Shown here: piece after piece, positions 4,506-55,098 of the stretch
Layout: each line of letters starts with the position of its first letter
How positions within the stretch are numbered: the first letter of the stretch is position 1
Origin: Arenicola marina
Taxonomy: Eukaryota > Annelida > Polychaeta > Arenicolidae
DNA length: 64,000 nucleotides
Assembly (NCBI GenBank): GCA_964019135.1
Contig: OZ025252.1
Coordinates: 9,440,823-9,504,822, forward strand
Reading direction: 5' to 3'
Notes under the pieces: generated by a model
The model's database searches: none
Seen by the model: the letters and a program-made list of their open reading frames with translations, nothing else
What the model was told of the DNA's origin: nothing
Position numbers and translations under genes: made by a program

Positions 4506-4535
4506 ATGATACAAGATATTTCGCACCGCTTACAG

Positions 4536-10500: not shown

Positions 10501-13500
10501 TCGAGGTATAATCTTCATTTTTATAAGAACGGCGTAACGGATGGATATTATCATATTAGATTAGTAATCTAGATTTTGTCACGTCAGGCGAGCTATCAGA
10601 ACTGTAAAACATGTCATTCATATCCGTCACGTCCGGCGAGCTATCAGAACTGTAAAACATGGCATACATATCAGTCACGTCAGGCGAGCTATCAGAATTG
10701 TAAAACATGGCATACATATCCGTCACGTCCGGCGAGCTATCAAAACTAATACATGTCATACATATCAGTCACGGCCGGCGAGCTATCAGAACTGTAAAAC
10801 ATGGCATACATATCAGTCACGTCAGGCGAGCTATCAGAACTGTAAAACATGGCATACATATCAGTCACGTCCGGCGAGCTATCAGAACTGTAAAACATGG
10901 CATACATATCAGTCACGTCAGGCGAGCTATCAGAACTGTAAAACATGTCATACATATCAGTCACGGCCGGCGAGCTATCAGAACTGTAAAACATGGCATA
11001 CATATCAGTCACGTCAGGCGAGCTATCAGAACTGTAAAACATGGCATACATATCAGTCACGTCAGGCGAGCTATCAGAATTGTAAAACATGTCATACATA
11101 TCAGTCACGTCCGGCGAGCTATCAGAACTGTAAAACATGGCATACATATCAGTCACGTCAGGCGAGCTATCAGAACTGTAATACATGTCATACATATCAG
11201 TCACGTCAGGCGAGCTATCAGAACTGTAAAACATGGCATACATATCAGTCACGTCAGGCGAGCTATCAGAACTGTAAAACATGGCATACATATCAGTCAC
11301 GTCAGGCGAGCTATCAGAACTGTAAAACATGTCATACATATCAGTCCCGTCAGGCGAGCTATCAGAACTGTAAAACATGGCATACATATCAGTCACGTCA
11401 GGCGAGCTATCAGAACTGTAAAACATGTCATACATATCAGTCACGTCAGGCGAGCTATCAGAATTGTAAAACATGTCATACATATCAGTCACGTCAGGCG
11501 AGCTATCAGAACTGTAAAACATGGCATACATATCAGTCACGTCAGGCGAGCTATCAGAATTGTAAAACATGTCATACATATCAGTCACGTCAGGCGAGCT
11601 ATCAGAACTGTAAAACATGTCATACATTTCAGTCACGTCAGGCGAGCTATCAGAACTGTAAAACATGTCATACATATCATTCACGTCAGGCGAGCTATCA
11701 GAATTGTAAAACATGTCATACATATCAGTCACGTCAGGCGAGCTATCAGAACTGTAAAACATGGCATACATATCACTCACGTCAGGCGAGCTATCAGAAT
11801 TGTAAAACATGTCATACATATCAGTCACGTCCGGCGAGCTATCAGTACTGTAAAACATGTCATACATATCAGTCCCGTCAGGCGAGCTATCAGAACTGTA
11901 AAACATGGCATACATATCAGTCACGTCAGGCGAGCTATCAGAATTGTAAAATATGTCATACATATCAGTCACGTCAGGCGAGCTATCAGAATTGTAAAAC
12001 ATGTCATACATATCAGTCACGTCCGGCGAGCTATCAGAACTGTAAAACATGTCATACATATCAGTCACGTCAGGCGAGCTATCAGAATTTTAAAACATGT
12101 CATACATATCAGTCACGTCCGGCGAGCTATCAGAACTGTAAAACATGTCATACATATCAGTCCCGTCAGGCGAGCTATCAGAACTGTAAAACATGTCATA
12201 CATATCAGTCACGTCCGGTGAGCTATCACAACTGTAAAACATGTCATACATATCAGTCCCGTCAGGCGAGCTATCAGAATTGTAAACATGTCATACATAT
12301 CAGTCACGTCCGGCGAGCTATCAGAACTGTAAAACTTGTCATACATATCAGTCCCGTCAGGCGAGCTATCAGAACTGTAAAACATGTCCTACATATCAGT
12401 CACGTCAGGCAAGCTATCACAACTGTAAAACATGTCATACATATCATCCAAATCTCTGGCCAGAATATTTCGAGCTTAGACTATTTATTCTCGACGTCGT
12501 TGTTTTAGATATCTCGGGCGGCCGTAAGTACGGTGTGACCGAAGTGCGCCTGCGTCGTTCTGACGGGACTTCCCCCTTCCCGTCCGGCGCCCCCCAGAGC
12601 GGCTCGCAGTCCGGGAAGCCCGAGGGATCCGGATCCAGGTGGCTGGGATCGGGCAGTATCGCCTCTCTCGTCATTGCCATTCTGGCTCTCATTCTGCTGG
12701 TGGCCCTCGGCATGTACTGCCTCATCGACCGGCGGCGACCACCCACCGAGAGGTGAGGAAGGGGGGGGGGGGTGGGGGGGGGGTCAGGGGGCGGGCGTAG
12801 TAGGTGGTGGTGGTGGAAGTGGGGGCAGTCAGGGTCCGGGTGTAACAGGTGGGGTTGGTGATGGGGGGGCGTTCAGGGGCCAGGTATTGGAGGTGGTGGT
12901 AGTGGGGGGGGGGTCAGGGTGCGGGTGCAGGAGGTGGTGGTGGGGGGATCAGGGTGCGGGTGTAGGAGGTAGTGGTGGGGGGGGGGGGGGGCGTGCGTAC
13001 AGGGGGCGGGTGTAGGATGGGATGGTGATGATGGGACGGTCAGGGTGCGGCTGTAGGAGGTGGTGGTGGTGGGGGGGGGTCAGATTGCGGGTGTAGGAGG
13101 TGATGATGGAGCGGTTAGGGGGCGGGTATAGGAAGTGGTGGTGGTGGGGGGGGGGGATGGTCAGGGTGCGGGTGTAGGAGGCGGTGGTGGTGGAAGAGGT
13201 TAGGTGCCGTTTTAGGAGGTGGTGATGGGTGGGGGGGGTCAGGGGCGGTTGTAAGAGGTGCTGATGGTGATTGGGCGGGTGTAGAAGGTTGTAGTGGGTG
13301 GTGAGGTGACTTGTAGTTGGGGTCTGGGACGTCTGGGTGGGTTGTAGTTGGGGTGAGAGTCAGGGTGAGATGCGTTAAGGGCGGTAATGGTGGGGTTTAG
13401 TTAGTGTGGGTTGCAGTGGGTAGGGTTGGGGGGGGGGTGTCGTTCTGTGGGGATGGAGGTCAGAGTGGGTGGGCTGGCTTGTGGTTGCGGGGGTTGGATT

Positions 13501-16120
13501 GAGTTGGGGTGGTGTATGCCCGCTCACCAATCGCCTTTCATATTAAAACGACAAATAAAATTAAATAGTTTATTCAAGGCATAAATCCGCAAATCTATTG
13601 AGTTATATTATCGTCCGTGATACGCGTACACTCATTCTAACGCTTACCATTGGTGACGTCATGTTGCAGGCAGCACGCCAAGTGGCCGTCGTTCCGGCTG
13701 CCCTTCCGTAAGATGGGCAGTGCCGGCGGGGAGATGGAGCTGGGCTCTACCCCCTTCCGCGACGACAAGACAGTTATGTATGGGGACATGCTGAGGGCTT
13801 TCAACAACCCCGTGTACGATACCCCCCAACAGGTGAGACACGGGTGTGGGCGGGTAGGAGTGGGGGGGGGGGGGTCACCAGGTAGCCATCACTTGGTGTG
13901 ACGTATCATTTTTCTATTTTCACTGTCCCTCTTCCCTTTCTCGCGTCACTTTAACTGTCCCCTCCCCTTTCTCATGTCATTTTCATTGTCCCCTCCCCTT
14001 TCTCGTGTCACTTTCAGTGCCCCCCTCCCCTTCCTGGTGTCACTTTAACTGTCCCCTCCCCTTTCTCGTGTCACTTTAACTGTCCCCCTCTCCTTCCACG
14101 CGTCACTTTCACTGTCCCCTCCCCTTTCTCATGTCACTTTCAGTGCCCCGCTCCCCTTCCTGGTGTCACTTTAACTGTCCCCTCCCCTTTCTGGTGTCAC
14201 TTTAACTGTCCTCCTTCCCTTTCTCGTGTCATTTTCACTGTCCTCCTCCCCTTTCTGGTGTCATTTTCACTGTCCCCGCTCCCCTTTCTGGTGTCACTTT
14301 AGCTGTCCCCTCCCCTTTCTCGTGTCACTTTAATTGTCCCCTCCCCTTTCTGGTGTCACTTTAACTGTCCTCCCCTTTCTCGTGTCACTTTAACTGTCCC
14401 TCTCCCCTTTCTCGTGTCACTTTAACTGTCCCCCTCCCCTTGCTCATGTCACTTTAACTGTCATCTCCCCTTTCTCGTGTCACTTTAACTGTCCCCCTCC
14501 CCTTTCCCGTGTCACTTTAACTGTCCCCTTCCCTTTCTCGTGTCACTTTAACTGTCCCCCTCCCCTTTCTCGTGTCACTTTAATTGTCCCCTCCCCTTTC
14601 TGGTGTCACTTTAACTGTCCTCCCTTTCTCGTGTCACTTTAACTGTCCCTCTCCCCTTTCTCGTGTCACTTTAACTGTCCCCCTCCCCTTGCTCATGTCA
14701 CTTTAACTGTCATCTCCCCTTTCTCGTGTCACTTTAACTGTCCCCCTCCCCTTTCCCGTGTCACTTTAACTGTCCCCTTCCCTTTCTCGTGTCACTTTAA
14801 CTGTCCCCCTTCCCTTTCTCGTGTCACTTTAATTGTCCCCTCCCCTTTCTGGTGTCACTTTAACTGTCCTCCCCTTTCTCGTGTCACTTTAACTGTCCCT
14901 CTCCCCTTTCTCCTGTCACTTTAACTGTCCCCCTCCCCTGGCTCATGTCACTTTAACTGTCATTTCCCTATTCTCGTGTCACTTTAACTGTCCCCCTCCC
15001 TTTTCCCGTGTCACTTTAACTGTCCCCCTTCCCTTTCTCGTGTCACTTTAACTGTCCCCCTTCCCTTTCTCGTGTCACTTTAACTGTCCCCCTTCCCTTT
15101 CTCGTGTCACTTTAACTGTCCCCTTCCCTTTCCCGTGTCACTTTAACTGTCCCCCTCCCCTTTCTCGTGTCACTTTAACTGTCCCTCTCCCCTTTCTCGT
15201 GTCACTTTAACTGTCCCCCTTCCCTTTCTCGTGTCACTTTAACTGTCCCCTTCCCTTTCCCGTGTCACTTTAACTGTCCCCCTCCCCTTTCTCGTGTCAC
15301 TTTAACTGTCCCCTCCCCGTTCCCGTGTCACTTTAACTGTCCCCCTCCCCTTTCTCGTGTCACTTTAACTGTCCCCTCCCCTTTCCCGTGTCACTTTAAC
15401 TGTCCCCCTCCCCTTTCAGTACGATGACGATGCGATAGGTGCCGCCAATGGTAGCAACCCCGTAATCCTTGACGCCAGTGACATTGAACCGACCTTCCAG
15501 AAGTCGATGAGGTCAGACTCGACGGCGGGCTTCAGCAACCCACTCTACGGTCAGAGTCAGGTGAGGTCAACCCCTGTCCGCGGGTGCTTTAACTGCTCAC
15601 CCCTAGTTCAATCCACTGGGTTCAATAGCGGAAGGATATTAAGGTTGGAGGAGTCCTACATATATATACGCCTGCCTTCGCACACCCCATCTAATGATAC
15701 GCTGCCATGCAGCATGTTACTGATGGTTAACCCGGCAGCTGGGCTTTTCGCCCGGGAGACAGGGCCTTCACTAACCCCATGTACTTTTTTGTTAAGGCAT
15801 ATATAGCGTAGATTATCCATGTCTCAAGATGTAAATGTCATTTCTATTCAACATAGTTAACACAGATTATAATTGGGTATGTAATTGATATTTATATGCG
15901 ACAACAACGACAACGAATGGTATTTAAATATGACGACAGCGACAACTTGTTCCGTGTCGCCAAACGTAGCGTAAAGCCCAATAGCATTATCTTTGTGAAC
16001 GATGTTTGCCATTTCCTTTCCCGTCCCCAGCAGTCGCAGCCAACATTGTACATCGATGCCAACATGAAGATCAACCCAGTTTTCACCCAGGAGGGCATAG
16101 AGGAGGACAGCTCCATATAG
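4536..16120 (+). CDS. AMN: Amnionless (AMN), 3' nine coding exons; 5' end outside window
   Basis: Type I membrane protein that carries cubilin to the apical surface for endocytosis. Exons: 4536-4762, 6191-6346, 7202-7298, 7959-8038, 10125-10257, 12509-12752, 13670-13832, 15420-15560, 16031-16120. All have AG/GT borders and compatible phases and give 442 residues plus stop. The order follows vertebrate AMN: a DPESWFDPDNW beta-helix segment, then the Cys-rich module CSDVTGCICGN and CESPLVVEGHCCKVCG, a juxtamembrane domain, one membrane helix (SLVIAILALILLVALGMY) followed by the basic stop DRRRPP, and a cytoplasmic tail. The tail has three endocytic motifs: FNNPVY (13800-13817), FSNPLY (15531-15548) and INPVF (16070-16084), like the FxNPxF pair of mammals. 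The signal peptide and N-terminal part (about 110-130 residues, judged from human AMN) must lie upstream of the 29-bp array. The first acceptor was set at TTACAG ending at 4535. The last acceptor is a CAGCAG tandem, so one Gln may be optional. The tail is longer than in mammals. Confidence 0.93.
4763..6190 (+). other. AMN intron between exons 4536-4762 and 6191-6346
   Basis: A GTGAGT donor and a TTTGTTTCCAG acceptor bound this 1.4-kb AT-rich stretch. I see no gene, array or recognisable transposon in it; the short ORFs are chance. Confidence 0.7.
6308..6505 (+). repeat. 50-bp tandem duplication of an AMN exon end and its donor (4 copies)
   Basis: The last 39 bases of exon 6191-6346 plus the donor GTCAGT form the first unit. 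Copies start at the TGACGTCAC motif at 6308, 6358, 6407 and 6458. Only the first is coding: read-through from the exon meets a stop in the second unit. The copied donors read GTCCGT rather than GTCAGT, so they look weaker. Confidence 0.85.
6536..7042 (+). repeat. 54-bp array made of tRNA-type SINE heads
   Basis: About nine tandem units containing GGTGTAGTGGTTGGCGCACT, which is an RNA polymerase III A-box region, followed by agaccgcagatcaataggtc. The same head occurs in a fuller tRNA-derived SINE at 35.5 kb, here without the B box. Short ORFs on both strands across it are by-products of a 54-bp unit. Confidence 0.8.
7299..7958 (+). other. AMN intron between exons 7202-7298 and 7959-8038
   Basis: Intron starting GTAGGT and ending TTTGCAG. 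It holds AT-rich sequence and a short C-rich stretch with a repeated GGTATTTT-ATGTTGT segment before the acceptor; no gene seen. Confidence 0.65.
8039..10124 (+). other. AMN intron between exons 7959-8038 and 10125-10257
   Basis: A 2.1-kb intron (GTAATT...CTTGTAG). It is unique-looking AT-rich DNA with a C-rich run near 10060. No coding region, RNA gene or clear mobile element recognised. Confidence 0.65.
10567..12450. repeat. 48-bp minisatellite (about 39 copies) in an AMN intron
   Basis: Unit of 48 bp with core CAGTCACGTCAGGCGAGC and TATCAGAACTGTAAAACATG. Because 48 is divisible by three and the unit lacks stops in some frames, long repetitive ORFs appear on both strands (504 codons on +, 440 on -). 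No independent sign of coding. It lies between AMN exons ending at 10257 and starting at 12509, ending about 60 bp before the acceptor. Confidence 0.95.
12755..13505 (+). repeat. G-rich degenerate array directly after an AMN donor
   Basis: Imperfect repeats of GTGTAGGAGGTGGTGGTGG with GGGGGG tracts and GTCAGGGTGCG begin 3 bases into the intron after exon 12509-12752. The + strand (RNA sense) has many runs of three or more Gs, so G-quadruplexes in the pre-mRNA are possible. Short Gly-rich ORFs here are not genes. Confidence 0.85.
13915..15419 (+). repeat. 30-32-bp pyrimidine-rich array ending in an AMN acceptor
   Basis: About 48 units of GTGTCACTTTAACTGTCCCC followed by CTCCCCTTTCTC. The last unit ends CCCCTTTCAG and is the polypyrimidine tract and 3' splice site of exon 15420-15560. 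Higher-order blocks (for example the TCATCTCCCC and GCTCATGTCAC variants) recur about every 300 bp. Confidence 0.93.
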
Positions 16121-17820: not shown

Positions 17821-20800
17821 CTACTTGGATAACGACCTGAAAACATAAACAAATTTACAACACCGTGACCACGGACTCCGTCGCTTCTTGTCGGTATTCT
17901 ATAACAAGCACAGTTAGAGGATAACCCTGTTTCAAACGGACCTAGCAACTCGGGTGTAACATACTGCAAGTACATCAAATGTGATGTAATTAAGGCTATT
18001 ATTATTAATAGCGATAGTACCTGGGGCCGTATGCACACACTCCCCGCAGTTTACGCATCACATCCCACGTGCCATTCCAATTGGATATGACAGCCCTGAC
18101 AGCGCTGACAGCAGATACGGCATATACAATGGCGACTACGGCCCCTAGGGCTGTGTGGTGGGCCTGCCACATCTCATGCGTAAGCCAGGTGTGGTGTATG
18201 ACTACGGCCCCTAGGGCTGTGTATGACTACAGCCCCTAGGGTTGTGTATGACTACGGCCCCTAGGGCTGTGTATGACTACGGCCCCTAAGGCTGTGTATG
18301 ACTACAGCCCCTAGGGTTGTGTATGACTACGGCCCCTAGGGCTGTGTATGACTACAGCCCCTAGGGTTATGTATGACTACGGCCCCTAGGGCTGTGTATG
18401 ACTACGGCCCCTAAGGCTGTGTATGACTACAGCCCCTAGGGTTGTGTATGACTACGGCCCCTAGGGCTGTGTATGACTACGGCCCCTAAGGCTGTGTATG
18501 ACTACGGCCCCTAAGGCTGTGTATGACTACAGCCCCTAGGGTTATGTATGACTACGGCCCCTAGGGCTGTGTATGACTACGGCCCCTAAGGCTGTGTATG
18601 ACTACGGCCCCTAGGGTTGTGTATGACTACGGCCCCTAGGGCTGTGTATGACTACGGCCCCTAGGGCTGTGTATGACTACGGCCCCTAGGGCTGTGTATG
18701 ACTACGGCCCCTAGGGCTGTGTATGACTACAGCCCCTAGGGCTGTGTATGACTACGGCCCCTAAGGCTGTGTATGACTACGGCTCCTAGGGCTGTGTATG
18801 ACTACGGCCCCTAGGGCTGTGTATGACTACGGCCCCTAGGGCTGTGTATGATTACGGCCCCTAGGGCTGTGTATGACTACGGCCCCTAGGGCTGTGTATG
18901 ACTACGGCCCCTAGGGCTGTGTATGACTACGGCCCCTAGGGCTGTGTATGACTACGGCCCCTAGGGCTGTGTATGACTACGGCCCCTAGGGTTGTGTATG
19001 ACTACGGCCCCTAGGGTTGTGTATGACTACGGCCCCTAGGGCTGTGTATGACTACGGCCCCTAGGGCTGTGTATGACTACGGCCCCTAGGGCTGTGTATG
19101 ACTACGGCCCCTAGGGCTGTGTATGACTACGGCCCCTAGGGCTGTGTATGACTACGGCCCCTAGGGCTGTGTACGACTACAGCCCCTAGGGTTGTGTATG
19201 ACTACGGCCCCTAGGGCTGTGTATGACTACGGCCCCTAGGGCTGTGTATGACTACGACCCCTAGGGTTGTGTATGACTACGGCCCCTAGGGTTGTGTATG
19301 ACTACGGCCCCTAGGGCTGTGTATGACTACGGCCCCTAGGGCTGTGTATGACTACGACCCCTAGGGTTGTGTATGACTACGGCCCCTAGGGCTGTGTATG
19401 ACTACGGCCCCTAGGGCTGTGTATGACTACGGCCCCTAGGGCTGTGTATGACTACGGCCCCTAGGGTTGTGTATGACTACGGCCCCTAGGGCTGTGTATG
19501 ACTACGGCCCCTAGGGCTGTGTATGACTACGGCCCCTAGGGCTGCGTATGACTACGGCCCCTAGGGCTGTGTATGACTACGGCCCCTAGGGCTGTGTATG
19601 ACTACGGCCCCTAGGGCTGTGTATGACTACGGCCCCTAGGGCTGTGTATGACTACGGCCCCTAGGGCTGTGTATGACTACGGCCCCTAGGGCGGTGTATG
19701 ACTACGGCCCCTAGGGCTGTGTATGACTACGGCCCCTAGGGTTGTGTATGACTACGGCCCCTAGGGCTGTGTATGACTACGGCCCCTAGGGTTGTGTATG
19801 ACTACGGCCCCTAGGGCTGTGTATGACTACGGCCCCTAGGGCTGTGTATGACTACGGCCCCTAGGGCTGTGTATGACTACGGCCCCTAGGGCTGTGTATG
19901 ACTACGGCCCCTAGGGTTGTGTATGACTACGGCCCCTAGGGTTGTGTATGACTACGGCCCCTAGGGCTGTGTATGACTACGGCCCCTAGGGCTGTGTATG
20001 ACTACGGCCCCTAGGGCTGTGTATGACTACGGCCCCTAGGGCTGTGTATGACTACGGCCCCTAGGGCTGCGTATGACTACGGCCCCTAGGGCGGTGTATG
20101 ACTACGGCCCCTAGGGTTGTGTATGACTACGGCCCCTAGGGCTGTGTATGACTACGGCCCCTAGGGCTGTGTATGACTACGGCCCCTAGGGCGGTGTATG
20201 ACTACGGCCCCTAGGGCGGTGTATGACTACGGCCCCTAGGGCGGTGTATGACTACGGCCCCTAGGGCTGTGTATGACTACGGCCCCTAGGGCTGCGTATG
20301 ACTACGGCCCCTAGGGCTGCGTATGACTACGGCCCCTAGGGCTGTGTATGACTACGGCCCCTAGGGCTGTGTATGACTACGGCCCCTAGGGCTGTGTATG
20401 ACTACGGCCCCTAGGGCGGTGTATGACTACGGCCCCTAGGGCTGTGTATGACTACGGCCCCTAGGGCTGTGTATGACTACGGCCCCTAGGGTTGTGTATG
20501 ACTACGGCCCCTAGGGCTGTGTATGACTACGGCCCCTAGGGCTGTGTATGACTACGGCCCCTAGGGCGGTGTATGACTACGGCCCCTAGGGCTGCGTATG
20601 ACTACGGCCCCTAGGGCTGTGTATGACTACGGCCCCTAGGGCTGCGTATGACTACGGCCCCTAGGGCGGTGTATGACTACGGCCCCTAGGGCTGTGTATG
20701 ACTACGGCCCCTAGGGCTGTGTATGACTACGGCCCCTAGGGCTGTGTATGACTACGGCCCCTAGGGCTGTGTATGACTACGGCCCCTAGGGTTGTGTATG

Positions 20801-23800
20801 ACTACGGCCCCTAGGGCTGTGTATGACTACGGCCCCTAGGGCTGTGTATGACTACGGCCCCTAGGGCTGTGTATGACTACGGCCCCTAGGGCTGTGTATG
20901 ACTACGGCCCCTAGGGCTGTGTATGACTACGGCCCCTAGGGCTGTGTATGACTACGGCCCCTAGGGTTATGTATGACTACGGCCCCTAGGGCTGTGTATG
21001 ACTACGGCCCCTAGGGCTGTGTATGACTACGGCCCCTAGGGCTGTGTATGACTACGGCCCCTAGGGCTGTGTACTCACGTGGAGGCGTTCTTTCCGCCGC
21101 CGGAGAGCACGATGTACGGCGTCTTCTCCTTTTGCTGCTTGAGGTGCAGCAGCTCAACCGTCCCCAGGGGCGTGTCCGTGGAACTCATCGACTTCATCAG
21201 CTGAAGGGGGGGGGAGGGTGGGGGGAGGGGGGCAATGCGGAGTCAAAGGTCACAGACATGACACGCAGCTTATACCACGATATCTAGGGGGTACTCATCA
21301 TCCGACAAGGGTGGAATGTGCGGTTACCGGTAGTTCTCAGGGTGTCTGTACATCGTTTCCCACCCCAATAATTTGTTCAGGAATATACCTATCATACAAG
21401 AATGTCCTGTATGCTACTCCAATGTATGAACTGTTTCCGCAGTCAGTCACCCCCTTGCCCAGCAGATAGCCGCGCCTACCCCGTGCCACCATGACCCTGA
21501 CAATACCTGCCCCACTCTCCTTAACCCAGACACCCACCAGCCCCATACCTCCACCCTGACCCAGACACCCACCAGCCCTGCCCCTGCTCAACTCAATCAA
21601 CTCTCCCGAAACCCTGCTCCACTCTCCCTCCGCACCACGTGAGCCAGACACGCAACAGCCCCATACCTCCTCCTTGACCTAGAAACCACGTGCCCCACTC
21701 TCTCTTCTCCCCGCCCACCCTGCCCCACACTGGCAGACACCTACCTGCTCCTCCTCCACTTTCTTCATGCGTTTCTCCGTCTTCTTCTTGCCGGATCCCT
21801 TGCCGTGGAAGCGGTGGGAGAGGTATCGGAAGGCCTCCTTCTGGTTCATCAGGCGCCCAGTGTCGTCCACGTACTCCAGCTTCACGTCCGGCTTGTAGCT
21901 GTCCTTGTCCTTGAAGTCCAGGATCATGCCACCGCTGTAGCGGCTCTGCTTCCGGAACTTCTCGTCAAGGTCACTGCACCAAGGTCAAACACACCCGTTA
22001 TTTACATCATCACTCTCACTTTAAGGTCATCCAGGTCAATCAAGTGGCCAAGATCAAAGGGGTTAAAAAGCTAATGAAGGTCCACCATGTTAACAATGTT
22101 AAAAAGGTAATAAAGCTCAACAATGTTAACAAGCTAATAAATGTCAACAATGTTAAGAATGTCATCAAGGTGATAGATACACGTAGCTTGAGAAGAAAGG
22201 CGAAAATCGGGGTGATGTGTGTAACCTGAAGATGTTAGTACCGACTGCGACTATGTACATGCAATAACGACGGGGTTATAGGCCGAAACGTCACCACGCC
22301 GTCAGTCATTTGGCGTATCGAGGCTTTATAATGGGATTGGCCATGTTCAAGTGTGATTATTTGCCAGCGTCCAAACTACTCGTTCGATTTCGAAGCCATT
22401 TGGCAAACATGATGTCAATAACATGGGTACATATTGCGCCACATGTGGGTCATCTACCTACATTCATGTAGTGACAGCGATTTTTATACACTTTTGGCAA
22501 TGTCAATACTGCATTTGCGACTCGCTCTGAAGAATACTCTCGAACAAACAGCGGATTTCTATACCCCATATTAACGCAGTGTTACGTGGGAAACCATATT
22601 TCGTGACCTTGAGCTTGGAAGCGTGATCTTGATCAATATAGTGCTTCGCGCCAAAATACTAAAGTCAAGTTTCACCTAAAGTGTCGTTCATCTGACATGT
22701 CCCCTTCGCGAAGAAATTGAGCATGCCATTTCCCGCCAAAATGCTCTCATAGAGTCCCATGTTAAACGTTTGGAATTGAACCTATCCGGGCAATTTAAGA
22801 AAGTGAAAAACCGTATACAAGGCACCTGTAGGCCCAATAGGTAAAACAATTGGCAGCGGGATTAAATCAAAACTGTGAACGGTATAGCGATTTTCGGTCC
22901 TAGCTTTCAATGGTTAAGCGAATTTCATAAAATTCCTGTGACCTTGACCTTTGACCTACATGGTACATATACGAATTTAGCCTGACGATGGCCATTTCGC
23001 ATCTTTTTGTGAATTTGGAAGTCGATATCTTAAGGCATTCGAAAGATAATGCGTCACGTGACAGACAGACAGACAGACATACTAACCGAACACAGATTTT
23101 TGTCTCACTAACCGAACACACCGACATTTTTTTCCTTTGGTTAAACATGGTATCCAGTAGCCACAGTTCGCTTACCATATACAATTCGAGCAAGAAATGA
23201 CGTCACAGAAGTTTTTAGAAATTTGGACAATGATGAAACATTATTGGTGCTATCAGGGGCTCCCACTGGCGTCTTATGCAGGCGATCACTCTATGCTTGC
23301 AGTTGTGGATGAATAATACTGAGCTGGATGGTGACATAACATAACATAAACGTTTAACATGGGACCCCATGGGGATAATCAAACTTCCTTCAATATGACG
23401 CACTTGGCCCAATGATAAAGCATACAGATTCTGGCTTAGAAAATTAGAAAAATCATCAAAATCGGAAAAAAAGCTTGAGCTGCGATATTTGCGGCACATA
23501 GTAGGGATAAACTTTCGCTCAATATACCTGAGCACAGAATTAACACAGTGTGCTTGGTGTGGGCACCAGGCCACTACGAAGAGCGGTACCCTACTCGCTC
23601 GGTCGCCCATGATTAGTGAATTTGGAAATCGATTTTTGTTTCTTGGCTAGAATAGCAACATTGAGCGAGCTCTCAATATTTATGCTGAAACGTTGCAACC
23701 GGTAGGATAAGACCGGCATGAGTATATTATAGTATGTGTTTTTCGCCTGTACCCTAGAACGCCTAGTTTCGGCGCTTAAAGGGTGCCACAGTAGTGGACA

Positions 23801-26800
23801 TAACAAATTGCGTCATTTCTGTCAGTACTTTCAGCCTAGGGCTACCTTGTTTGTATTGCCCCGTATTCCCCAGATCGACCACTGTTAATGTCGGTCCAAG
23901 CCTGAGTGACCATTGGAACAGTTGCCCGATCACCACCGGATTGCCCCAATGAGCACACCCACACGACTTAGTCGTATCACCACCGGATTGCCCCAATGAG
24001 CACACCCACACGACTTACTCGTATCGCTTGTCCTCGATGGAGTAGTTCTGCGACTCCATGACGGCATGGCGAGGGGCGCTCACCTTCTTCGTCGTCTCCT
24101 GCTCCAGGTAACCTAGCAACGAGACCAAGGACTCGCAGACATCAACACTTGAAGACAAATATGTATACTATAAAGTAACTCTTGGTGGCAAGAGGTAGCC
24201 CACTCTCCCCCTTCCTCTCCACGCCCCCACTCCTAGTCTCACGGCTCCTCGTCCCGATTTACCCCCCCCCCTCCCCTAATCTCTGACCTTTCTTATTGAT
24301 CAGGGTTCCCCCTCTCAGGGCCAGGGCCCCTCCCCCACCCCCATCCACTCCACCCCCCGTCGCTAGTGACCCACCTGTTTTGCTGGTCAGGGCACTCCCC
24401 CCTATGTTCCCGAAGTGACCCACCTTTCTTGGTGGCCAGCGCCAGCGCGGCCGCTAGCCCCTCGTTCAGAATGGGCTCCTCCTCCAGCCCGCTCTTCTCC
24501 TCCACCTTGATCTCGACGGGCCGCGTGTCAATCTGGACGGACTGCCAGCCCCGCGCCGCCTCCTCCTCTTCCTCAGCCTCGCGCCGCCGCTGCTCCGACA
24601 GCTCTTGCTCCAGGTCCTGTGGGGGAGGCGGTGAGGGGGTGATCAGTTACGTATCACTCACACTTAACTAATAGTTTGTAGACCGTCAAATACGACCGTC
24701 AAAATGTATTTATTCGACCCAAATTGATTTTCAACTGATTTAAAAATTTGAAATATTTATTTTAATTAATTATAATACAATTGCTTGTCACTTTTGAAAC
24801 GGAAAATATTAACAAGGTAATATTGGTCAGCTTACCGCCATGCCGTGAGGGTGACCACTCACCATCAGCTGATTCGCCTTCGCCGCCGGTCTGTTGCTTG
24901 CCATGCCGTGAGGGTGACAACTTATCATCGGGTGACCACTTACCATCAGCTGATCCTCCTCCGCCGCCGGTCTGTTGCCCTTGCCGTGAGGGTGACCACT
25001 TACCATCAGCTGATCCTCCTCCTCCGCCGGTCTGTTGGCCTTGCCGTGAGGGTGACCACTTACCATCGGGTGACCACTTACCATCAGCTGATCATCCTCC
25101 GCCGCCGGTCTGTTGCCCTTGCCGTGAGGGTGACCACTTACCATCAGCTGATCCTCCTCCTCCGCCGGTCTGTTGCCTGCCATGCCGTGAGGGTGACCAC
25201 TTACCATCAGCTGATCCTCCTCCTCCGCCGGTTTGTTACCCATGCCGTGAGGGTGACCACTTACCATCAGCTGATCCTCCTCCTCAGCCGGTCTGTTACC
25301 CTTGCCGTGAGGGTGACCACTTACCATCAGCTGATCCTCCTCCGCCGCCGGTCTGTTACCCTTGCCGTGAGGGTGACCACTTACCATCAGCTGATCCTCC
25401 TCCTCCGCCGGTCTGTTGCCCTTGCCGTGAGGGTGACCACTTACCATCAGCTGATCCTCCTCCGCCGCCGGTCTGTTGCCCTTGCCGTGAGGGTGACCAC
25501 TTACCATCAGCTGATCCTCCTCCTCCGCCGGTCTGTTGCCCTTGCCGTGAGGGTGACCACTTACCATCAGCTGATCCTCCTCCTCCGCCGGTCTGTTGCC
25601 CTTGCCGTGAGGGTGACCACTTACCATCAGCTGATCCTCCTCCGCCGCCGGTCTGTTGCCCTTGCCGTGAGGGTGACCACTTACCATCAGGTGATCCTCC
25701 ACCGCCGCCGGTCTGTTGCCCTTGCCGTGAGGGTGACCACTTACCATCAGCTGATCCTCCTCCTCCGCCGGTCTGTTGCCCTTGCCGTGAGGGTGACCAC
25801 TTACCATCAGCTGATCCTCCTCCGCCGCCGGTCTGTTGCCCTTGCCGTGAGGGTGACCACTTACCATCAGCTGATCCTCCTCCTCCGCCGGTCTGTTGCC
25901 CTTGCCGTGAGGGTGACCACTTACCATCAGCTGATCCTCCTCCTCCGCCGGTCTGTTGCCCTTGCCGTGAGGGTGACCACTTACCATCAGCTGATCCTCC
26001 TCCTCCGCCGGTCTGTTGCCCTTGCCGTGAGGGTGACCACTTACCATCAGCTGATCCTCCTCCTCCGCCGGTCTGTTGCCCTTGCCGTGAGGGTGACCAC
26101 TTACCATCAGCTGATCCTCCTCCTCCGCCGGTCTGTTGCCCTTGCCGTGAGGGTGACCACTTACCATCAGCTGATCCTCCTCCTCCGCCGGTCTGTTGCC
26201 CTTGCCGTGAGGGTGACCACTTACCATCAGCTGATCCTCCTCCTCCGCCGGTCTGTTGCCCTTGCCGTGAGGGTGACCACTTACCATCAGCTGATCCTCC
26301 TCCTCCGCCGGTCTGTTGCCCTTGCCGTGAGGGTGACCACTTACCATCAGCTGATCCTCCTCCGCCGCCGGTCTGTTGCCCTTGCCGTGAGGGTGACCAC
26401 TTACCATCAGGTGATCCTCCACCGCCGCCGGTGTGTTGCCCTTGCCGTGAGGGTGACCACTTACCATCAGCTGATCCTCCTCCGCCGCCGGTGTGTTGCC
26501 CTTGCCGTGAGGGTGACCACTTACCATCAGCTCATCCTCCTCCTCCGCCGGTCTGTTGCCCGCCATGCCGTAAGTGGGAATCTCGCCCAGGGAGCGGCAA
26601 AACTCGGACGTGGAGTTGAGGACGATCTGGCCGACCTGTCCCACCATCAAAGAGGCCACCCCCTCGGCGGGAGGTAGGGACGTCCAGCGCCGCCCCTCTG
26701 CCTCCCCCACATCCTCCGCCTCCTCCACATGGTCTGTCCGGCTCTGTCGCAGGACGGTTTCCGCCAGCGCCTTGCAAGGAAATGGAACAGATTTTGACGG

Positions 26801-29800: not shown

Positions 29801-32800
29801 CACAAGAATGGCATAAACAGCAATATTTATACCACGCTTTGACCGCTTCCGTTACGGGCAAAAGCTTGGACATTTTGGACATGATTGTCAAAATATAAAA
29901 CATGTTAAACATTTGATTAAACAAATTATAGTTTATAGCATAAATTACAAAAGTCAAATCGATTTCGCCCCCCACCACCCCCACACCATCGACATACAAA
30001 CACCAGCGCCGTAGACCACTGCCCCCCACCCCCTCAGTCCCATGCCGCCACTCACCTTCGTCCGGCACCCCGGGTGCCAAGGTCATTGCGCACAACGTCC
30101 CTCATCTGCAGAAGTTCGTCGGCGGTCACGGTTTTGGGCTTCTTACGCATCTTGCGCACCTTCTTCTTGACCTTCTTGAAGGTCGCAGCCTCGTCTTGGG
30201 TCATGTATTCTGTGGCCAGAGTGGGCGGTGGCAATGATAGAGTCTCCTGAAACGGGAGGGTGAGGGATGTAACAAAGGTAGGCTGGGAAGACTGCTGTAC
30301 GGGTGTAACAAAGGTAGGCTCGGGAGGAGCTTATAGGGGTGTAACAAAGATAGGAAACCGCCTCTAACTCTGCTTTACCGATTCATAAAATACCCAAGTG
30401 TCTATCCTGCAAATTACAGAATTTTACGTCCTGTCTATAGCTTACAATAAAATTTAGAAGTGACCGCCAGCCACGACTTCGCCGCTTAACCAGACCGAAG
30501 CCCTTTTTGGAGGTGTGTCCGCGATTGACCAATCAGGAGGCGATACTCTAATTATATTCAAACCGGAAATGACGCTTACTGTGTGCGCAAAAGAAGAGCG
30601 CGTGATCATCGTGATCATATAAATAGCTGCGATTCTAACTCTAATCATGTTTTTTTTTACGAGACAATCTTTGCAAGAGATATATAAATTTGTTTCGATA
30701 CTATTTTTCCATGAAACACTATGATTATGGTCTACTGCGCGGCTTGGAACTGCCGCAATTCATCCGCAAATCGCGGCCCTGATCTCTCGTTTCCCGTGTT
30801 TCCCCTGAAGGGTACCTCCACTGCGAAGAGTTCCCTCTGTGAGATAATTTCCAGTTCGAACGTTAGGCGGCGCCACATGAAGGGTCACAATATACGTCAC
30901 TTGCTCCGGCAAAATGGCGCTGTCGACATTGATGGAGGCGGGATGCCTTAATTTTTTTCTCCTTACCAGTCGGCCGAGACATTAATTTTTTAAGATGTAA
31001 ACATTCGGTGCAGAACGCGATTAGATTAGGTTGGACATCTGCTGTAACCTCTCATAATAATTAAAGAAAGCGACAAGTAGCTAAACCAGCCTAGAATAAG
31101 ACCAATGGCCCGGCATGAATACATACAAAAAGCAAACCTTCGATTGCCAGTGTAACAAACCAATACTCATCGTCCCGAACGGGGCGCCACTGTTCCTTGT
31201 GATGGGGAGGTGGACAGGGCTGAAATACTCAAACCACGGCACCACTCACCCCTCTCTGTCTGATCTCCGCCTTAAACTGCTCCAGTCTTCGGTCATCGTC
31301 GGCGTCATATTTACCTCCAGCGCCTGAAACATCGAGATAACAATAGGTCTGTGATATATGACATCAGGATCCATATGGGTCTGTGATATATGACATCATG
31401 ATCCATATGGGTCTGTGATATATGACATAATGATCCATATGGGTCTGTGATATATGACATCACGATCCATATGGGTCTGTGATATATGACATAATGATCC
31501 ATATGGGTCTGTGATATATGACATCATGATCCATATGGGTCTGTGAAATTAGCCCCCAGTTCCTGCATCCTGCATATAGTCGACAGAGTCCTAACTTGCA
31601 GAAAATAGTTATTGGTAAATGGTTAATATATAGTACGAACGTTAAAATAATTCGCAATACCTCAAACTATGTAAGACTCATTTGTTAGCGACGAAACATA
31701 TTATACCAGTAACTTTATAGCTAAACCTTGAAACCTTACTGCATGTATATTAATAGTGATACATAACAATATAGTTTTGATGTTTAGAGGATAGTGACTG
31801 GTTAGCTGTTCAGGCTGGTTGGCCTATGTTACCCCACTATTGTATTTCGCAGTTTTATATTGTATATTATCTAGTGTCTCATGCCAAGTGTCACTTAAAT
31901 CAATTATTCTTCTACTACTACTACTACTACTACTAGTACTACAGTAATTATTGATTTAAGATGGGCTGCAGGCACCAAGCCAAGACACATCCTGGGATGA
32001 GAGGTGTGGAACTATCAAGTCTGAGGGGCCCGGTGAGCTGAGGGAAGTTGATGATACACCGGATTACATACCCAGTTCAAACTGCTTTTTTCTCTCGCCG
32101 AGAATTTCCTCGTCGTATTTCTCAAGCATTTCTCTTGGTTTAAGCTGGAAATACAATAATTATACATCAGGCTATACCAGATTACACATGTTAGAAGCCA
32201 CAGCCCACAACAAGCAGGTTACAATAGTGATTTTATCTGATTATATCTGAATTTTATCTCAAACTAACGGTATCCTCTGTTGCTTGTGAAGAAGAGGTAA
32301 CCATCTCTCTTGCCCCATTTTGTCACTAAGTTAATTACGCAAAGGGTCTGTTGTGGTCACACAGAGGGCTGGCTGACTGTAGTGGTCACACAGAGGGCTG
32401 GCTGACTGTAGTGGTCACACAGAGGGCTGGCTGACTGTAGTGGTCACACAGAGGGCTGGCTGACTGTTGTGGTCACACAGAGGGCTGGCTGACTGTAGTG
32501 GTCACACAGAGGGCTGGCTGACTGTTGTGGTCACACAGAGGGCTGGCTGACTGTAGTGGTCACACAGAGGGCTGGCTGACTGTAGTGGTCACACAGAGGG
32601 CTGGCTGACTGTAGTGGTCACACAGAGGGCTGTCTGACTGTAGTAGTCACACAGAGGGCATGCTAACTGTAGTGGTCACACAGAGGGCTGGCTGACTGTA
32701 GTGGTCACACAGAGGGCGGGCTGACTGTAGTGGTCACACAGAGGGCTAGCTGACTGTAGTGGTCACACAGAGAGCTGGCTGACTGTAGTGGTCACACAGA

Positions 32801-35800
32801 GGGCTGGCTGACTAGTGGTCACACAGAGGGCTGGCTGACTGTAGTGGTCACACAGAGGGCTGGCTGAATGTAGTGGTCACACAGAGAGATGGCTGACTGT
32901 AGTGGTCACACAGAGGGCTGGTTGACTGTAGTGGTCACACAGAGGGCTGGCTGACTGTAGTGGTCACACAGAGGGCTGGTTGACTGTAGTGGTCACACAG
33001 AGGGCTGGCTGACTAGTGGTCACACAGAGGGCTGGCTGACTGTAGTAGTCACACAGAGGGCTGTCTGACTGTAGTAGTCACACAGAGGGCTGGCTGACTG
33101 TAGTGGTCACACAGAGGGATGTCTGACTGTAGTAGTCACACAGAGGGCTGGCTGACTCTAGTGATCACACAGAGGGTGGCTGACTGTAGTAGTCTCACAG
33201 AGGGCTGGCTGACTGTAGTGGTCACACAGAGGGCAGGCTGACTGTAGTAGTCCCACAGAGGGCTGGCTGACTGTAGTGGTCACACAGAGGGCTGGCTGAC
33301 TGTAGTAGTCACACAGAGGGCTGTCTGACTGTAGTAGTCACACAGAGGGTGGCTGACTGTAGTAGTCCCACAGAGGGTTGGCTGACTGTAGTGGTCACAC
33401 AGAGGGCTGGCTGACTGTAGTAGTCCCACAGAGGGCTGGCTGACTGTAGTGGTCCAACAGAGGGCTGGCTGACTGTAGTGGTCACACAGAGGGCTGGCTG
33501 ACTGTAGTGGTCACAGATGGTTGGCTGACTGTAGTGGTCACACAGAGGGCTGGCTGACTAGTGGTCACACAGAGGGTTGGCTGACTGTAGTGGTCACACA
33601 GAGGGTTGGCTGACTGTAGTGGTCACACAGAGGGCTGGCTGACTAGTAGTCACACAGAGGGCTGTCTGACTGTAGTGGTCACACAGAGGGCTGGCTGACT
33701 AGTGGTCACACAGAGGGCTGGCTGACTGTAGTAGTCACACAGAGGGCTGGCTGACTAGTAGTCACACAGAGGGCTGGCTGACTGTAGTAGTCACACAGCG
33801 GGCTGGCTGACTGTAGGGGTCACACAGAGGGCTGGCTGACTGTAGTAGTCACACAGAGGGCTGCCTGACTGTAGTGGTCACACAGAGGGCTGGCTGACTG
33901 TAGTAGTCACACAGAGGGCTGGCTGACTCGTGATCACACAGAGGGTGGCTGACTGTAGTAGTCACACAGAGGGCTGGCTGACTGTAGTGGTCACACAGAG
34001 GGCTGTCTGACTGTAGTAGTCACACAGAGGGCTGGCTGACTCGTGATCACACAGAGGGTGGCTGACTGTAGTAGTCACACAGAGGGCTGGCTGACTGTAG
34101 TGGTCACACAGAGGGCTGGCTGACTGTAGTAGTCACACAGAGGGCTGTCTGACTGTAGTAGTCACAGAGGGCTGGCTGACTGTAGTAGTCACACAGAGGG
34201 CTGGCTGACTGTAGTGGTCACACAGAGGGCTGGCTGACTGTAGTAGTCACACAGAGGGCTGGCTGACTGTAGTGGTCACACAGAGGGCTGGCTGACTAGT
34301 AGTCACACAGAGGGCTGGCTGACTTTAGTGGTGACACAGAGGGCTGGCTGAGTAGTAGTCACACAGAGGGCTGGCTGACTGTAGTGGTCACACAGAGGGC
34401 TGGCTGACTAGTTGTTACACAGAGGGCTGGCTGACTGTAGTTGCCACACAGAGGGTGGCTGACTGTAGTAGTCACACAGAGGGCTGGCTGACTGTAGTGG
34501 TCACACAGAGGGCTGGCTGACTGTAGTGGTCACACAGAGGGCTGGCTGACTGTAGTAGTCACACAGAGGGCTGGCTGACTGTAGTAGTCACACAGAGGGC
34601 TGGCTGACTAGCGGTCACACAGAGGGTTGGCTGACTTTAGTGGTGACACAGAGGGCTGGCTGACTAGTGGTCACAGAGAGGGCTGGCTGACTGTGGTGGT
34701 CACACAGAGGGCTGGCTGACTAGTGGTCACACAGATGGTTGGCTGACTTTAGTGGTGACACAGAGGGCTGGCTGACTAGTGGTCACAGAGAGGGCTGGCT
34801 GACTGTGGTGGTCACACAGAGGGCAGGCTGACTGTAGTGGTCACACAGAGGGCTGGCTGACTAGTGGTCACACAGATGGTTGGCTGACTTTAGTGGTGAC
34901 ACAGAGGGCTGTCTGACTGTAGTGGTCACACAGAGGGCTGGCTGACTGTAGTAGTCACACAGAGGGCTGGCTGACTGTAGTGGTCACACAGAGGGCTGGC
35001 TGACTGTAGTGGTCACACAGAGGGCTGGCTGACTGTAGTGGTCACACAGAGGGCTGGCTGACTGTAGTGGTCACACCGAGGGCTGACTGACTGTAGTAGT
35101 CACACAGAGGGCTGGCTGACTGTAGTGGTCACACAGAGGGCTGGCTGACTGTAGTGGTCACACAGAGGGCTGGCTGACTGTAGTGGTCACACCGAGGGCT
35201 GGCTGACTGTAGTAGTCACACAGAGGGCTGGCTGACTCACCATGCCATATTCGTCCACATCGGGTTCGTCGTACGGTTTGTAGTCTGGTTTCTTCTTCTT
35301 GTTGTCCACGTTCTTGGCTGCCTTCTCGTCGTCAGCGATGTTGACGTTAACCAGGACGTCTCCATCCTCCTCCAGCACGCCTGCCGGCAAGGAAGGAAGC
35401 CATTTGGGGGTTTTAGGCCGTCTTTCCGCACACAAGAGCTTAAACTGGGCCAAGGAACCTCCCTAGTCCTGGGACGATGAAGGATGAATGGAAAAAAACA
35501 TGTGCCCAGGCGCGGATTCGAACTCAGGACCTATTAATCTGCCGTCTAGTGCGCTAACCACTACACCAAGGAGAAACACTTCATACCAAGATGTAAATCG
35601 AGCTCAGAAATACCCATCTGTCGCTTCAAAGACATTATAACGTGTAATGCAACCTATTTATTTTATGCGGCGTGTGATCCTTAAGTTAACAAGTTTAAGT
35701 TTACCGTGTTAACAGATGCGTGTTAACTACTGTGTTAACAGATGCGTTGCTGCCACTTACCCTTGTCTTTGAGCGTCAGTATGACCATGCGGCCCTCCTT

Positions 35801-38800
35801 GAAGGACTCCTTTTCGTGCTCCACCGTCAGCCCACGCAGGTCCTTGGCAGAGTAACCCTAAAGAAACAACGGATAGACAGGTCATGGCCCTGGGTATAAG
35901 ACACAGCGGATAGACAGGTCATGTCTCTGGGTATCAGACAGTGGATAGACAGGTCATGGCTCTGGGTATAAGACACAGCGGATAGACAGGTCATGGCTCT
36001 GGGTATAAGACACAGCGGATACCCAGGTCATGGCCCTGGGTATAAGACACAGCGGATAGCCAGGTCATGGCCCTGGGTATAAGACACAGCGGATAGACAG
36101 GTCATGGCTCTGGGTATAAGACACAGCGGATACCCAGGTCATGGCCCTGGTATAAGACACAGCGGATAGACAGGTCATGGCCCTGGGTATAAGACAGCGG
36201 ATAGACAGGTCATGGCTCTGGGTATAAGACACAGCGGATAGACAGGTCATGGCCCTGGGTATAAGACACAGCGGATAGACAGGTCATGGCCCTGGGTATA
36301 AGACAGCGGTCATGACTGGGTATAAGACACAGCGGATAGACAGGTCATGACTGGGTATAAGACACAGCGGTTAGACAGGTCATGGCCCTGGGTATAAGAC
36401 AGCGGTTAGACATATAATGGCTATAGGGTATACAGTGGGCGATGACCAAACCAGATGTCCACAGATTAGGCAGACCGGAGTGATAATTTTTTGTTACACT
36501 TTGTTTCATTTTGTAATAAATGATTTGTATACGCTGTTCAAAATTATGAATTACGAACAATCTTACGTTAGCTCCCTCCCCCTCTGACCATTCACTTTAT
36601 TTCTTTTGACAACCCATTTTGTCTCTCTGACCATCCACATTGTCTCTGACGACCCACCTGGTCTCTGAAAACCCACCTGATCTCTGAACACCCACCTGAT
36701 CTCTGAACACCCACCTTATCTGACTACCCACCCTTTCTCAGACCACCCACCTTGTCTCTATGACAAACGACCTTGTCTCTAAAACAAACGACCTTGTCTC
36801 TATGATCACCCACCCTATCTCTCTGACCACCCACCTTGTTTCTGACCACAAACCTTGTCTCTCTGACAACCTACCTTGTTTCTGACCACCCCATCATGTC
36901 TCTCTGACCACCCCACCTTGTCTCTCTGACCACCCCTCCATGTCTCTCTGACCACCCCTCCATGTCTCATTGAGCACCCACCTTGTCTCTCTGACCACCC
37001 CATCATGTCTCTCTGACCACCCCACCATGTCTCATTGAGCACCCACATTGTCTCTCTGACCACCCCATCATGTCTCTCTGACCACCCCACCTTGTCTCTC
37101 TGACCACCCCATCATGTCTCTTTGAGCACCCACCTTGTCTCTCTGACCACCCCACCATGTCTCTTTGAGCACTCACCTTGTCTCTTTGACCACCCCATCA
37201 TGTCTCTTTGAGCACCCACCTTGTCTCTCTGACCACCCCATCATGTCTCTTTGAGCACCCACCTTGTCTCTCTGACCACCCCACCATGTCTCTCTGACCA
37301 CCCCACCATGTCTCTTGGAGCACCCATCTTGTCTCTCTGACCACCCCATCATGTCTCTTTGAGCACCCACCTTGTCTCTGACCACCCCACCATGTCTCTC
37401 TGACCACCCCACCATGTCTCATTGAGCACCCACCTTGTCTCTCTGACCACCCCATCATGTCTCTTTGAGCACCCACCTTGTCTCTCTGACCACCCCACCA
37501 CGTCTCTCTGACCAACCCACCATGTCTCATTGAGCACCCACCTTGTCTCTGACCACCCCATCATGTCTCTTTGAGCACCCACCTTGTCTCTCTGACCACC
37601 CCACCATGTCTCTCTGACCCCCCCACCATGTCTCATTGAGCACCCACCTTGTCTCTCTGACCACCCCATCATGTCTCTTTGAGCACCCACCTTGTCTCTC
37701 TGACCAGCCCACCATGTCTCTCTGACCACCCCACCATGTCTCTTGGAGCACCCACCTTGTCTCTCTGACCAGCCCACCATGTCTCTCTGACCACCCCACC
37801 ATGTCTTTTTGAGCACCCACCTTGTCTCTCTGACCACCCCACCATGTCTCTTTGATCACCCACCTTGTCTTTCTGACCACCAAACGCCTCGTCCACGAGG
37901 TCTCCGACTCCGAACTCAGCATCCATCTCCTCCAACAACTTGGCCTGGAAATAACAGTGCAATCTTCACTATAACATGTGACGGACGAAACGAGTGACCA
38001 ATCGTTGAACATGGATACAAGTATCCCCACTATAACCTTTTCTTTTTTTTCTTTTCTTATATTAACAAATAAGTAACAAACCTCACGAGAGAAAATAAGT
38101 ATTAACTATTGAAAGAAGGTGCCATGATCTGACAGTGAAACCAGATCATGAGTGGAAGTCACTCTGCGGACATCTGAGCTACAATAGTTCGCTAGTCCTT
38201 GTACCACAGAACTTTGACTCATTGGCCAAAGGCATATTGGAGAGCTTGCTCACCTGTTTGTCTGCTTTGTCTTTCTCTATCTGTTTCTGACGACTCTTCT
38301 TGACCCAGATGGCCGCATTCAATTCATCATCCGAGTCACTATCTGCCAATGTCTTCACTTTGCTGCAACAAGGACATCCAGATGAATAATGATCTATAAC
38401 GGTTTATTATATATAAAGTTTGTATGCTATATGTATATTCTAGTTTTGAATAAGGTGGTTAAGAAATGTGCAACGTAATAAATATATAAAGTAAGATATG
38501 ACGATTAATATATCACAATATCAGTCAGTGACAATGTCCGCATGGTTATCAAAATATCATATGAGTATGGGACAATGTTTCCATGATAGTCAAGATAGTC
38601 ATCAGCGTCCAAATAACTAATGTTGTGTCTTAGGCACAGTGTCGTTTGTCTGACGTGTAGCCTTCATAGAGAAATCGAGCAGTCATGTGCCCGCCAAAAT
38701 TCTCTCGTATGGTCCCATGTTAAACTTCGGGAATTTTTTGCAGAAAAACTATTGGGGCGATTTGCAAAATGTCAAGACGATATACAAGGTACCCGATAAG

Positions 38801-52107: not shown

Positions 52108-52260
52108 GATCTGGTCGGGATAAATATACTCAAAGGTAGAAATTTACCACGAAGACAAGCAAGATAACAATTACCTGATTACCGAACGAGAAACGCCAAA
52201 CAGGCAAACCAGCAAACGGCGCTGAAGTGCGTGTTGGCGCGCGCTGGAGTCTGCCAGTTA
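52108..52260 (-). promoter_or_regulatory. SART1 5' UTR and presumed promoter
   Basis: GC-rich GGCGTTTC and GCGCGCGCC stretches lie just upstream of the coding start, without a clear TATA box near the probable start. Assigned from position only. Confidence 0.4.
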
Positions 52261-54900: not shown

Positions 54901-55098
54901 GGCTGTCTGTGTCATTGTATAACGATGAAAACTGTTACACTCATGTATTCAAGACTTTCTGCGGGTCATTACAGTATTGACCATTATCAGATACTCCTCC
55001 ATTTCTTTAATTATCATAGCACACATGTTATCATACGCGTTATCAATATCAGACTGTGTATTTCTGGAATGTTCAATGTTCTCGATTAACTCAACCAC

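Follow-up and report, generated by a model that had tools for sequence, protein, structure and literature searches.

The 5′ splice site of one exon of SART1, here called exon K, has been amplified into a tandem array of 29 donors, all of which lie in the reading frame of the exon. Most probably the array is a splice-site-spanning minisatellite that is tolerated by the gene, its first donor being used and the later copies being removed as intron. The components of this reading that were observed are the array itself, the phases of its donors, the neutral-fitting changes among its units and the similar arrays elsewhere in the genome.

The gene was examined by tblastn with residues 117–800 of human SART1, a query identical to PDB 5o9z_P. 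It mapped as 14 colinear pieces to the minus strand of the window (the whole stretch of 64,000 nucleotides that was analysed), beginning at 42332 and ending at 21078; three of the pieces were weak on their own (E-values of 0.048 for A, 0.14 for J, and 6.3 for H). Exon M was placed by eye, resulting in 15 colinear exon pieces, A to O. When joined at hand-chosen splice sites, exons A–I and exons J–O each form a stop-free frame; the model comprises these two blocks, to either side of a gap separating I from J, and stops before the terminal exon. By this homology the gene is SART1, the predicted U4/U6.U5 tri-snRNP-associated protein 1, as a preliminary description of the same DNA had proposed. An RS-rich open frame at 51793–52143 of the minus strand resembles the SART1 N-terminus. 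Exon K ends in ELM at the first donor and exon L opens with DLEQ. Since the human sequence reads ELM and then DF, the first donor yields the conserved SART1 junction. As exon L starts in phase 0, read-through of the array would remain in frame. The coordinates of the main features are listed in Table 1.

A motif scan of the minus strand for GT[AG]AGT identified 29 donors from 26524 to 24862. Twenty-eight of them read GTAAGT (26524 to 24943), and the remaining one, at 24862, is GTGAGT. The donors are near-identical, and ATGGTRAGTGGTCACCC is common to all 29. The 28 spacings between them measure 60 bp in 25 cases and 63, 18, and 81 bp once each, every length being a multiple of three. At about 24925 a further copy of the junction is broken and has ATAAGT in place of the donor. 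Tandem Repeats Finder assigned a score of 2793 to 25068–26561. The array is real and not a chance pattern, and its units contain the exon tail, the donor, and the start of the intron together, so that the exon–intron boundary is spanned. The preliminary description had counted about 28 equivalent donors in 60-bp units, each with the exon tail, a donor, and 24 intron bases. The donor array and the repetition of tail and donor were borne out, but the donors number 29, plus the one broken copy, and the "24 intron bases" are partly derived from the exon.

It could be argued that a short duplication was collapsed or expanded into 29 donors during assembly, given that the array is seen in one assembly only (867 Mb, 762 contigs) and that tandem arrays are often misassembled. 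However, the units carry different variants and are of mixed lengths, and similar arrays are present at other sites of the genome. No second allele or paralog of the array was found in the assembly by a search that scored the best candidates alone; it returned the exon and a 35-base match within the array. An artefact of this kind is thus extremely improbable, although the copy number of the array may still be off.

Table 1. Exons and tandem arrays in and around SART1 (positions in the window)
Feature	Position	Strand	Details
SART1 exon K (246 bases; "exon 14" of the preliminary description)	26525..26770	-	tblastn to human SART1; acceptor TTGCAAG/GCG picked by hand; ends in phase 0
SART1 exon L, phase 0 start (GAC CTG GAG)	24424..24616	-	tblastn, joining
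SART1 exon K array; repeated unit made up of the exon tail, its donor, and the first intron bases	24841..26561	-	units of 60 bp, one of 63 bp, and short copies of 18 bp; 29 donors, 26524 to 24862
First donor GTAAGT, gives conserved junction ELM/D	26519..26524	-	human ELM/DF
Distalmost copy, in which a GTGAGT donor is followed by 16 intron-type bases and the 12-bp ACGGCATGGCGG	24835..24862	-	ACGGCATGGCGG also at exon -47 to -36
Second donor-spanning array, SART1 exon D, GACAAG/GTGGGT	36607..37881	-	45 donor-like copies; 17 of 44 extra in frame; stop at +192
Third donor-spanning array, SART1 exon M, ATACGA/GTAAGT	23929..24025	-	47 bp × 2.1; copy 2 CTAAGT, a broken donor
25-bp array, 115 copies	18194..21073	-	starts about 6 bases beyond the end of exon O (21079)
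29-bp array, 101 copies	32348..35237	-	starts 4 bases beyond the end of exon F (35241); donor not part of unit
37-bp array	35861..36305	-	stops 4 bases short of the exon E acceptor edge (35857)

An older form of the repeat unit is retained at the distal end of the array. It is 63 bp long and consists of about 47 exon-derived and 16 intron-derived bases, and the 60-bp unit corresponds to it minus 3 bases. The 12-base sequence ACGGCATGGCGG is shared between the exon (−47 to −36) and the intron at +17 after the last donor, while the longest exon–intron match among 150 control intron pieces was 9 bases. We infer the founding event, as we do the donor choice and the tolerance discussed below. The founding step would have been a tandem duplication, probably between the two ACGGCATGGCGG direct repeats at exon −47 and intron +17, that copied the last 47 bases of the exon and the first 16 of the intron. 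The 60-bp form may then have arisen from the 63-bp unit by a 3-base deletion, and later unequal exchange or slippage would have led to the 29 donors. Where the exon has GAG, the 63-bp unit and each of the 25 units counted have CAG, or CAC derived from CAG, indicating that the exon copy has not been homogenised with the array units. The near-identity of the units fits a recent expansion, which was one of the two explanations that the preliminary description had offered for the open frame, the other being selection against stops.

That the frame is open and in phase 0 throughout was confirmed. Measured from the first donor, the inserts range from 0 to 1662 bases and are all multiples of three, all 28 extra donors are in the exon frame, and the first in-frame stop, a TGA, is located 1695 bases past the first donor, just beyond the last one. 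Such a structure could be an optional coding repeat, in which the internal donors would be used appreciably, the SART1 protein would carry a variable number of 20-residue repeats, and the frame would be selected. The 28 in-frame donors without a stop over 1.7 kb are in line with this, as are the near-identity of the 29 donors and the unit lengths. In addition, ELM is followed in human SART1 by an acidic region, and an insert may be tolerated there. The fact that all lengths (60, 63, 18, and 81) are multiples of three is mildly unexpected, at about 1 in 9, by our own estimate, for two independent free indel events, and is a weak point for selection.

The changes within the array, on the other hand, speak against a coding repeat. 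Ten distinct variants were found in the 25 60-bp units, eight nonsynonymous, two synonymous, and none creating a stop. The possible single changes comprise 137 nonsynonymous, 37 synonymous, and 6 stop changes, which gives a probability of 0.71 that ten changes contain no stop; with ten changes only, the test has low power. The count is confined to the 60-bp units; the further changes present in the 63-bp unit, in the copies of 18 and 81 bp, and in the partial copy at the end would lower this probability somewhat. Within the 25 60-bp units, and at this low power, neither an excess of synonymous changes nor a lack of stops beyond chance was found, and the variant pattern fits neutrality. Moreover, the exon frame is not the only open one. 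Three of the six frames through the array, including the exon's own, are open for more than 600 codons, and the open frames other than the exon's own extend for 391 codons on the same strand and for 617 and 618 codons on the opposite strand. None of 15 sister donor arrays in other genes (described below) remains open, and in the nearest studied case, that of human ABCA7, about 2% of transcripts keep one unit. On the minisatellite reading, a multiple-of-three, stop-free unit is a property of the founding unit and not evidence of selection. Selection on the frame, and with it the proposed selection against stops, is not supported by these data; the frame seems to be open by chance and not because a protein repeat was selected, and we consider a coding repeat unlikely.

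If the array is instead a tolerated minisatellite, the first donor would mostly be used, giving the normal ELM/D junction, and the array would be spliced out as intron, by analogy with ABCA7. The duplication would be tolerated by construction, because the copy proximal to the exon always has an intact exon tail and an intact donor. Occasional splicing from a later donor would insert about 20 in-frame residues for each unit, and nonsense-mediated decay (NMD) would not be expected. As the unit is in frame, a leak is expected to give a stable mRNA, and an in-frame coding leak from donors 2–29 is possible. A special RNA fold that hides the internal donors was not supported by the folding of the first units (z +0.89).

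A long array need not be silent, since longer ABCA7 arrays raise the skipping of the next exon. The array could also be pictured as a regulatory decoy that binds U1 or splicing factors, its copy number tuning the inclusion of exon K or L. The effect of array length on ABCA7 exon 19 (PMC5954066) favours such a role, as does the 29-fold repetition of a strong donor (scored at 10.5 by a crude matrix). Nevertheless, unrelated genes of this genome carry such arrays with unrelated units, which argues against a device specific to SART1, and the RNA folding value given above is not special. A decoy is in our opinion quite unlikely.

Two more SART1 exons, D and M, have donor-spanning arrays, and further arrays begin or end within a few bases of an exon (Table 1). 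Eight out of 20 SART1 arrays have an end at most 30 bases from a splice edge, compared with a mean of 2.9 under rotated exon edges (p 0.009). Tandem arrays (89 with a period of at least 10 and at least 2.5 copies) cover about 35% of a 264-kb region consisting of the window and 100 kb on each side (C5:9340823-9604822). For one earthworm genome, 2.65% minisatellites are given in a report that used other settings (PMC12130307).

Several other elements were seen in the window. On the plus strand, a 32-bp pyrimidine-rich array of about 48 copies (13918–15417) extends as far as the acceptor of what appears to be an exon (CCCCTTTCAG/TACGATGACG) and is an acceptor-side counterpart to the donor arrays. 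A 29-bp array of 153 copies (1–4508) ends directly before an open frame at about 4510–4830, an apparent protein exon that we take to resemble amnionless. At 10568–12508 there is a 48-bp array with long open frames, 646 and 505 codons on the plus strand and 447 codons on the minus strand. Finally, an open frame with reverse-transcriptase-like motifs (YADDIALHAES, by eye) at 54038–54934 of the minus strand is probably a LINE fragment.

To place the SART1 array in its genomic context, exons of the same genome were sampled by matches to Pfam Myosin_head (at least 77 matches, 65 of 168 candidates scored) and Cpn60_TCP1 (49 matches). Altogether 104 exons were read, 57 of the 77 myosin matches and 47 of the 49 CCT matches, two CCT matches of more than 600 bases having been dropped. 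Twelve of the 57 myosin exons lie in five stretches that were chosen first, four of these because of long open-frame values. Since such values recur at distant exons of one gene, they were given no weight as evidence, and stops were computed directly. The donor was repeated in an array overlapping the exon end in 15 of the 104 exons (14 by the main rule, plus L042; L113 is a doubtful case). With the first-chosen stretches excluded, the number was 12 out of 92, two repeated donors of L024 and one of L028 being subtracted from the 15. In L079, L092, L095, and L112 an array overlapped the exon end and no repeated donor was found. Tandem Repeats Finder showed arrays touching many exon edges in the sample, and acceptor edges were also spanned, for example in L076 and L048. 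The repeat units in unrelated genes were unrelated to one another.

All 15 sister donor arrays meet a stop within 184 bases, as judged from about 250 bases past each exon. One to five extra donors, not all in frame, precede the stop in six of them (L024 twice, L102, L117, L051, and L066). Only L101 (C4:41903679-41904358), a myosin exon with a 42-bp donor array, has every extra donor in frame (5/5). This exon is in phase 2, and therefore GTAAG immediately places TAA in frame and the stop is at the donor itself. The complete openness of the exon K array is thus matched by none of the 15. As the sister arrays and those of SART1 exons D and M lose the frame or the donor, frame retention is no general demand. 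A multiple-of-three unit whose phase is not 2 and whose intron part lacks stops would be expected in roughly one array in eight, by a rough estimate, and was seen in one of 17 (the 15 plus SART1 D and K).

The starts of the arrays accumulate at the donor. In the 104 exons, the last 25 exon bases, [−25,0), contain 10 array starts (3.85 per kb) against 1.07 expected, and the last 75, [−75,0), contain 16 against 3.08, with a Poisson P of about 2 × 10−7 for both under a model that ignores clustering. Thirteen starts fall in the first 100 intron bases (4.3 expected) and one between +100 and +175 (3.2 expected). The background was 0.41 array starts per kb, obtained from 377 pieces of 700 bp of the 264-kb region, and the comparison applies to exons of two gene families that include paralogs, to a single background region, and to HMM match ends taken as splice edges. 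In the 92 exons outside the first-chosen stretches the corresponding numbers of starts were 7, 13, 13, and 1, with 0.95, 2.75, and 3.8 expected for the first three. On the acceptor side, 14 array ends lie in [−50,+50) against 4.3 expected (P 1.6 × 10−4) and 6 further ends lie 100 to 150 bases upstream of the acceptor, the peak being less sharp than on the donor side.

Donor motifs showed no enrichment in the units of the 89 arrays of the 264-kb region over a reversed control (GGTRAGT 1 vs. 3 units, GTAAGT 1 vs. 4, GTGAGT 5 vs. 5, AGGTRAG 2 vs. 1, and AGGTRRGT 2 vs. 2), a result that by itself speaks against a general association of arrays with splice sites. We judged this to be a weaker test than the position relative to known exons, because the array donors vary (GTACGT, GTAAGC, GTGGGT, GTAGGC) and most of the 264 kb is away from known exon edges.

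A broader proposal, which we put forward tentatively and with more doubt than confidence, is that 5′ splice sites are birthplaces of minisatellites in this genome: arrays would begin at donors several times as frequently as at other places, about one in seven donors would carry an array, the first donor would win, and a phase-0 subset would leak in-frame repeats at a low level. If true, this would be a route from an intron edge to a coding repeat, SART1 being the clearest phase-0 case seen. The greater surprise is the frequency of arrays among the sampled donors. Two questions become testable: how the spliceosome settles on a single donor when 29 nearly identical ones are on offer, and what causes tandem arrays to form at 5′ splice sites. 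SART1 should be a good locus for studying donor choice, because splicing from any of its donors preserves the frame and the transcripts should not be subject to NMD, so that the junctions could be counted without loss.

The mitochondrial contig, on which cox1 was identified by a profile, gave an indication of the host. The order nad3, nad2, cox1, cox2, atp8, cox3 was read by eye, as were the apparent tRNAs N, D, Y, and G between these genes; ARAGORN with the bacterial code found no tRNAs on the contig. In the annelid arrangement, as far as it is given in one source, nad3 lies between nad1 and nad2, and Sipunculus has cox1-N-cox2-D-atp8-Y-E-G-cox3 (PMC2639372). Judged by these readings, the gene order looks annelid-like, and we regard the genome as that of an annelid. 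The GFP family, tried as an amphioxus marker, gave no match, but it gave none in the control genomes either and so carries no information. Splice-edge arrays, clustered at the donor, are frequent in the sampled exons of an animal from what is apparently another phylum than those of the published cases found.

Protein-coding VNTRs have units that are multiples of three and a long open frame. The exon K array shares both properties; unlike them, it is located downstream of an intact donor, should behave as intron, and shows no sign of codon selection. Earthworm metallothionein genes contain minisatellite-sized tandem repeats in introns, and another clone has exon 4 duplications that are absent from the transcript (PMC12783039). 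These are annelid repeats as well, but no donor-spanning is described in the accessible text of that report. Similarly, C. elegans CeRep25B is an intronic minisatellite near alternatively spliced exons, for which the available description does not mention repetition of an exon edge (PMC4039745). No report of donor-spanning minisatellites in annelids was found in the literature searched, which included few subscription papers.

Within that literature, splice-edge minisatellites were found in amphioxus genes and at one human disease locus. The latter is the VNTR in intron 18 of ABCA7, a 25-bp minisatellite of 12 to approximately 427 copies whose first GT is the canonical donor of exon 18 (PMC5954066). 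Like the exon K array it includes the canonical donor, while its unit, as described there, starts at GT and has no exon tail. Its function and polymorphism have been measured. The ABCA7 unit is not a multiple of three, and a transcript that keeps one unit therefore loses the frame. According to the same source, these transcripts carry a PTC and are raised by cycloheximide, so the figure of about 2% is lowered by NMD, and it is independent of array length; the skipping of exon 19 ranges from 12 to 45% by tissue and increases with array length (PMC5954066).

The amphioxus "mirages" are minisatellites at exon–intron edges, described for Adh3, the globins BflGb6 and BflGb9, troponin C, and PGBD5, and splicing at them was tested experimentally (PMC3087553, PMC3902484). 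The accounts list 3 and 6 units, each 150 to 160 bp long, for BflGb6, one duplicate for BflGb9, and units of 10 to 72 bp for Adh3 (PMC3087553, PMC3902484). The exon K array is a minisatellite of the "mirage" type, as it spans the boundary and its units hold the splice signals. It differs in having 29 donors, all in frame, and in being known from sequence alone. Its host has an annelid-like mitochondrial order and is not a cephalochordate, for which the term was coined, a difference that is descriptive and not defining. Taken together, the exon K array looks like a known kind of structure in an apparently new phylum and in an unusual, in-frame form.
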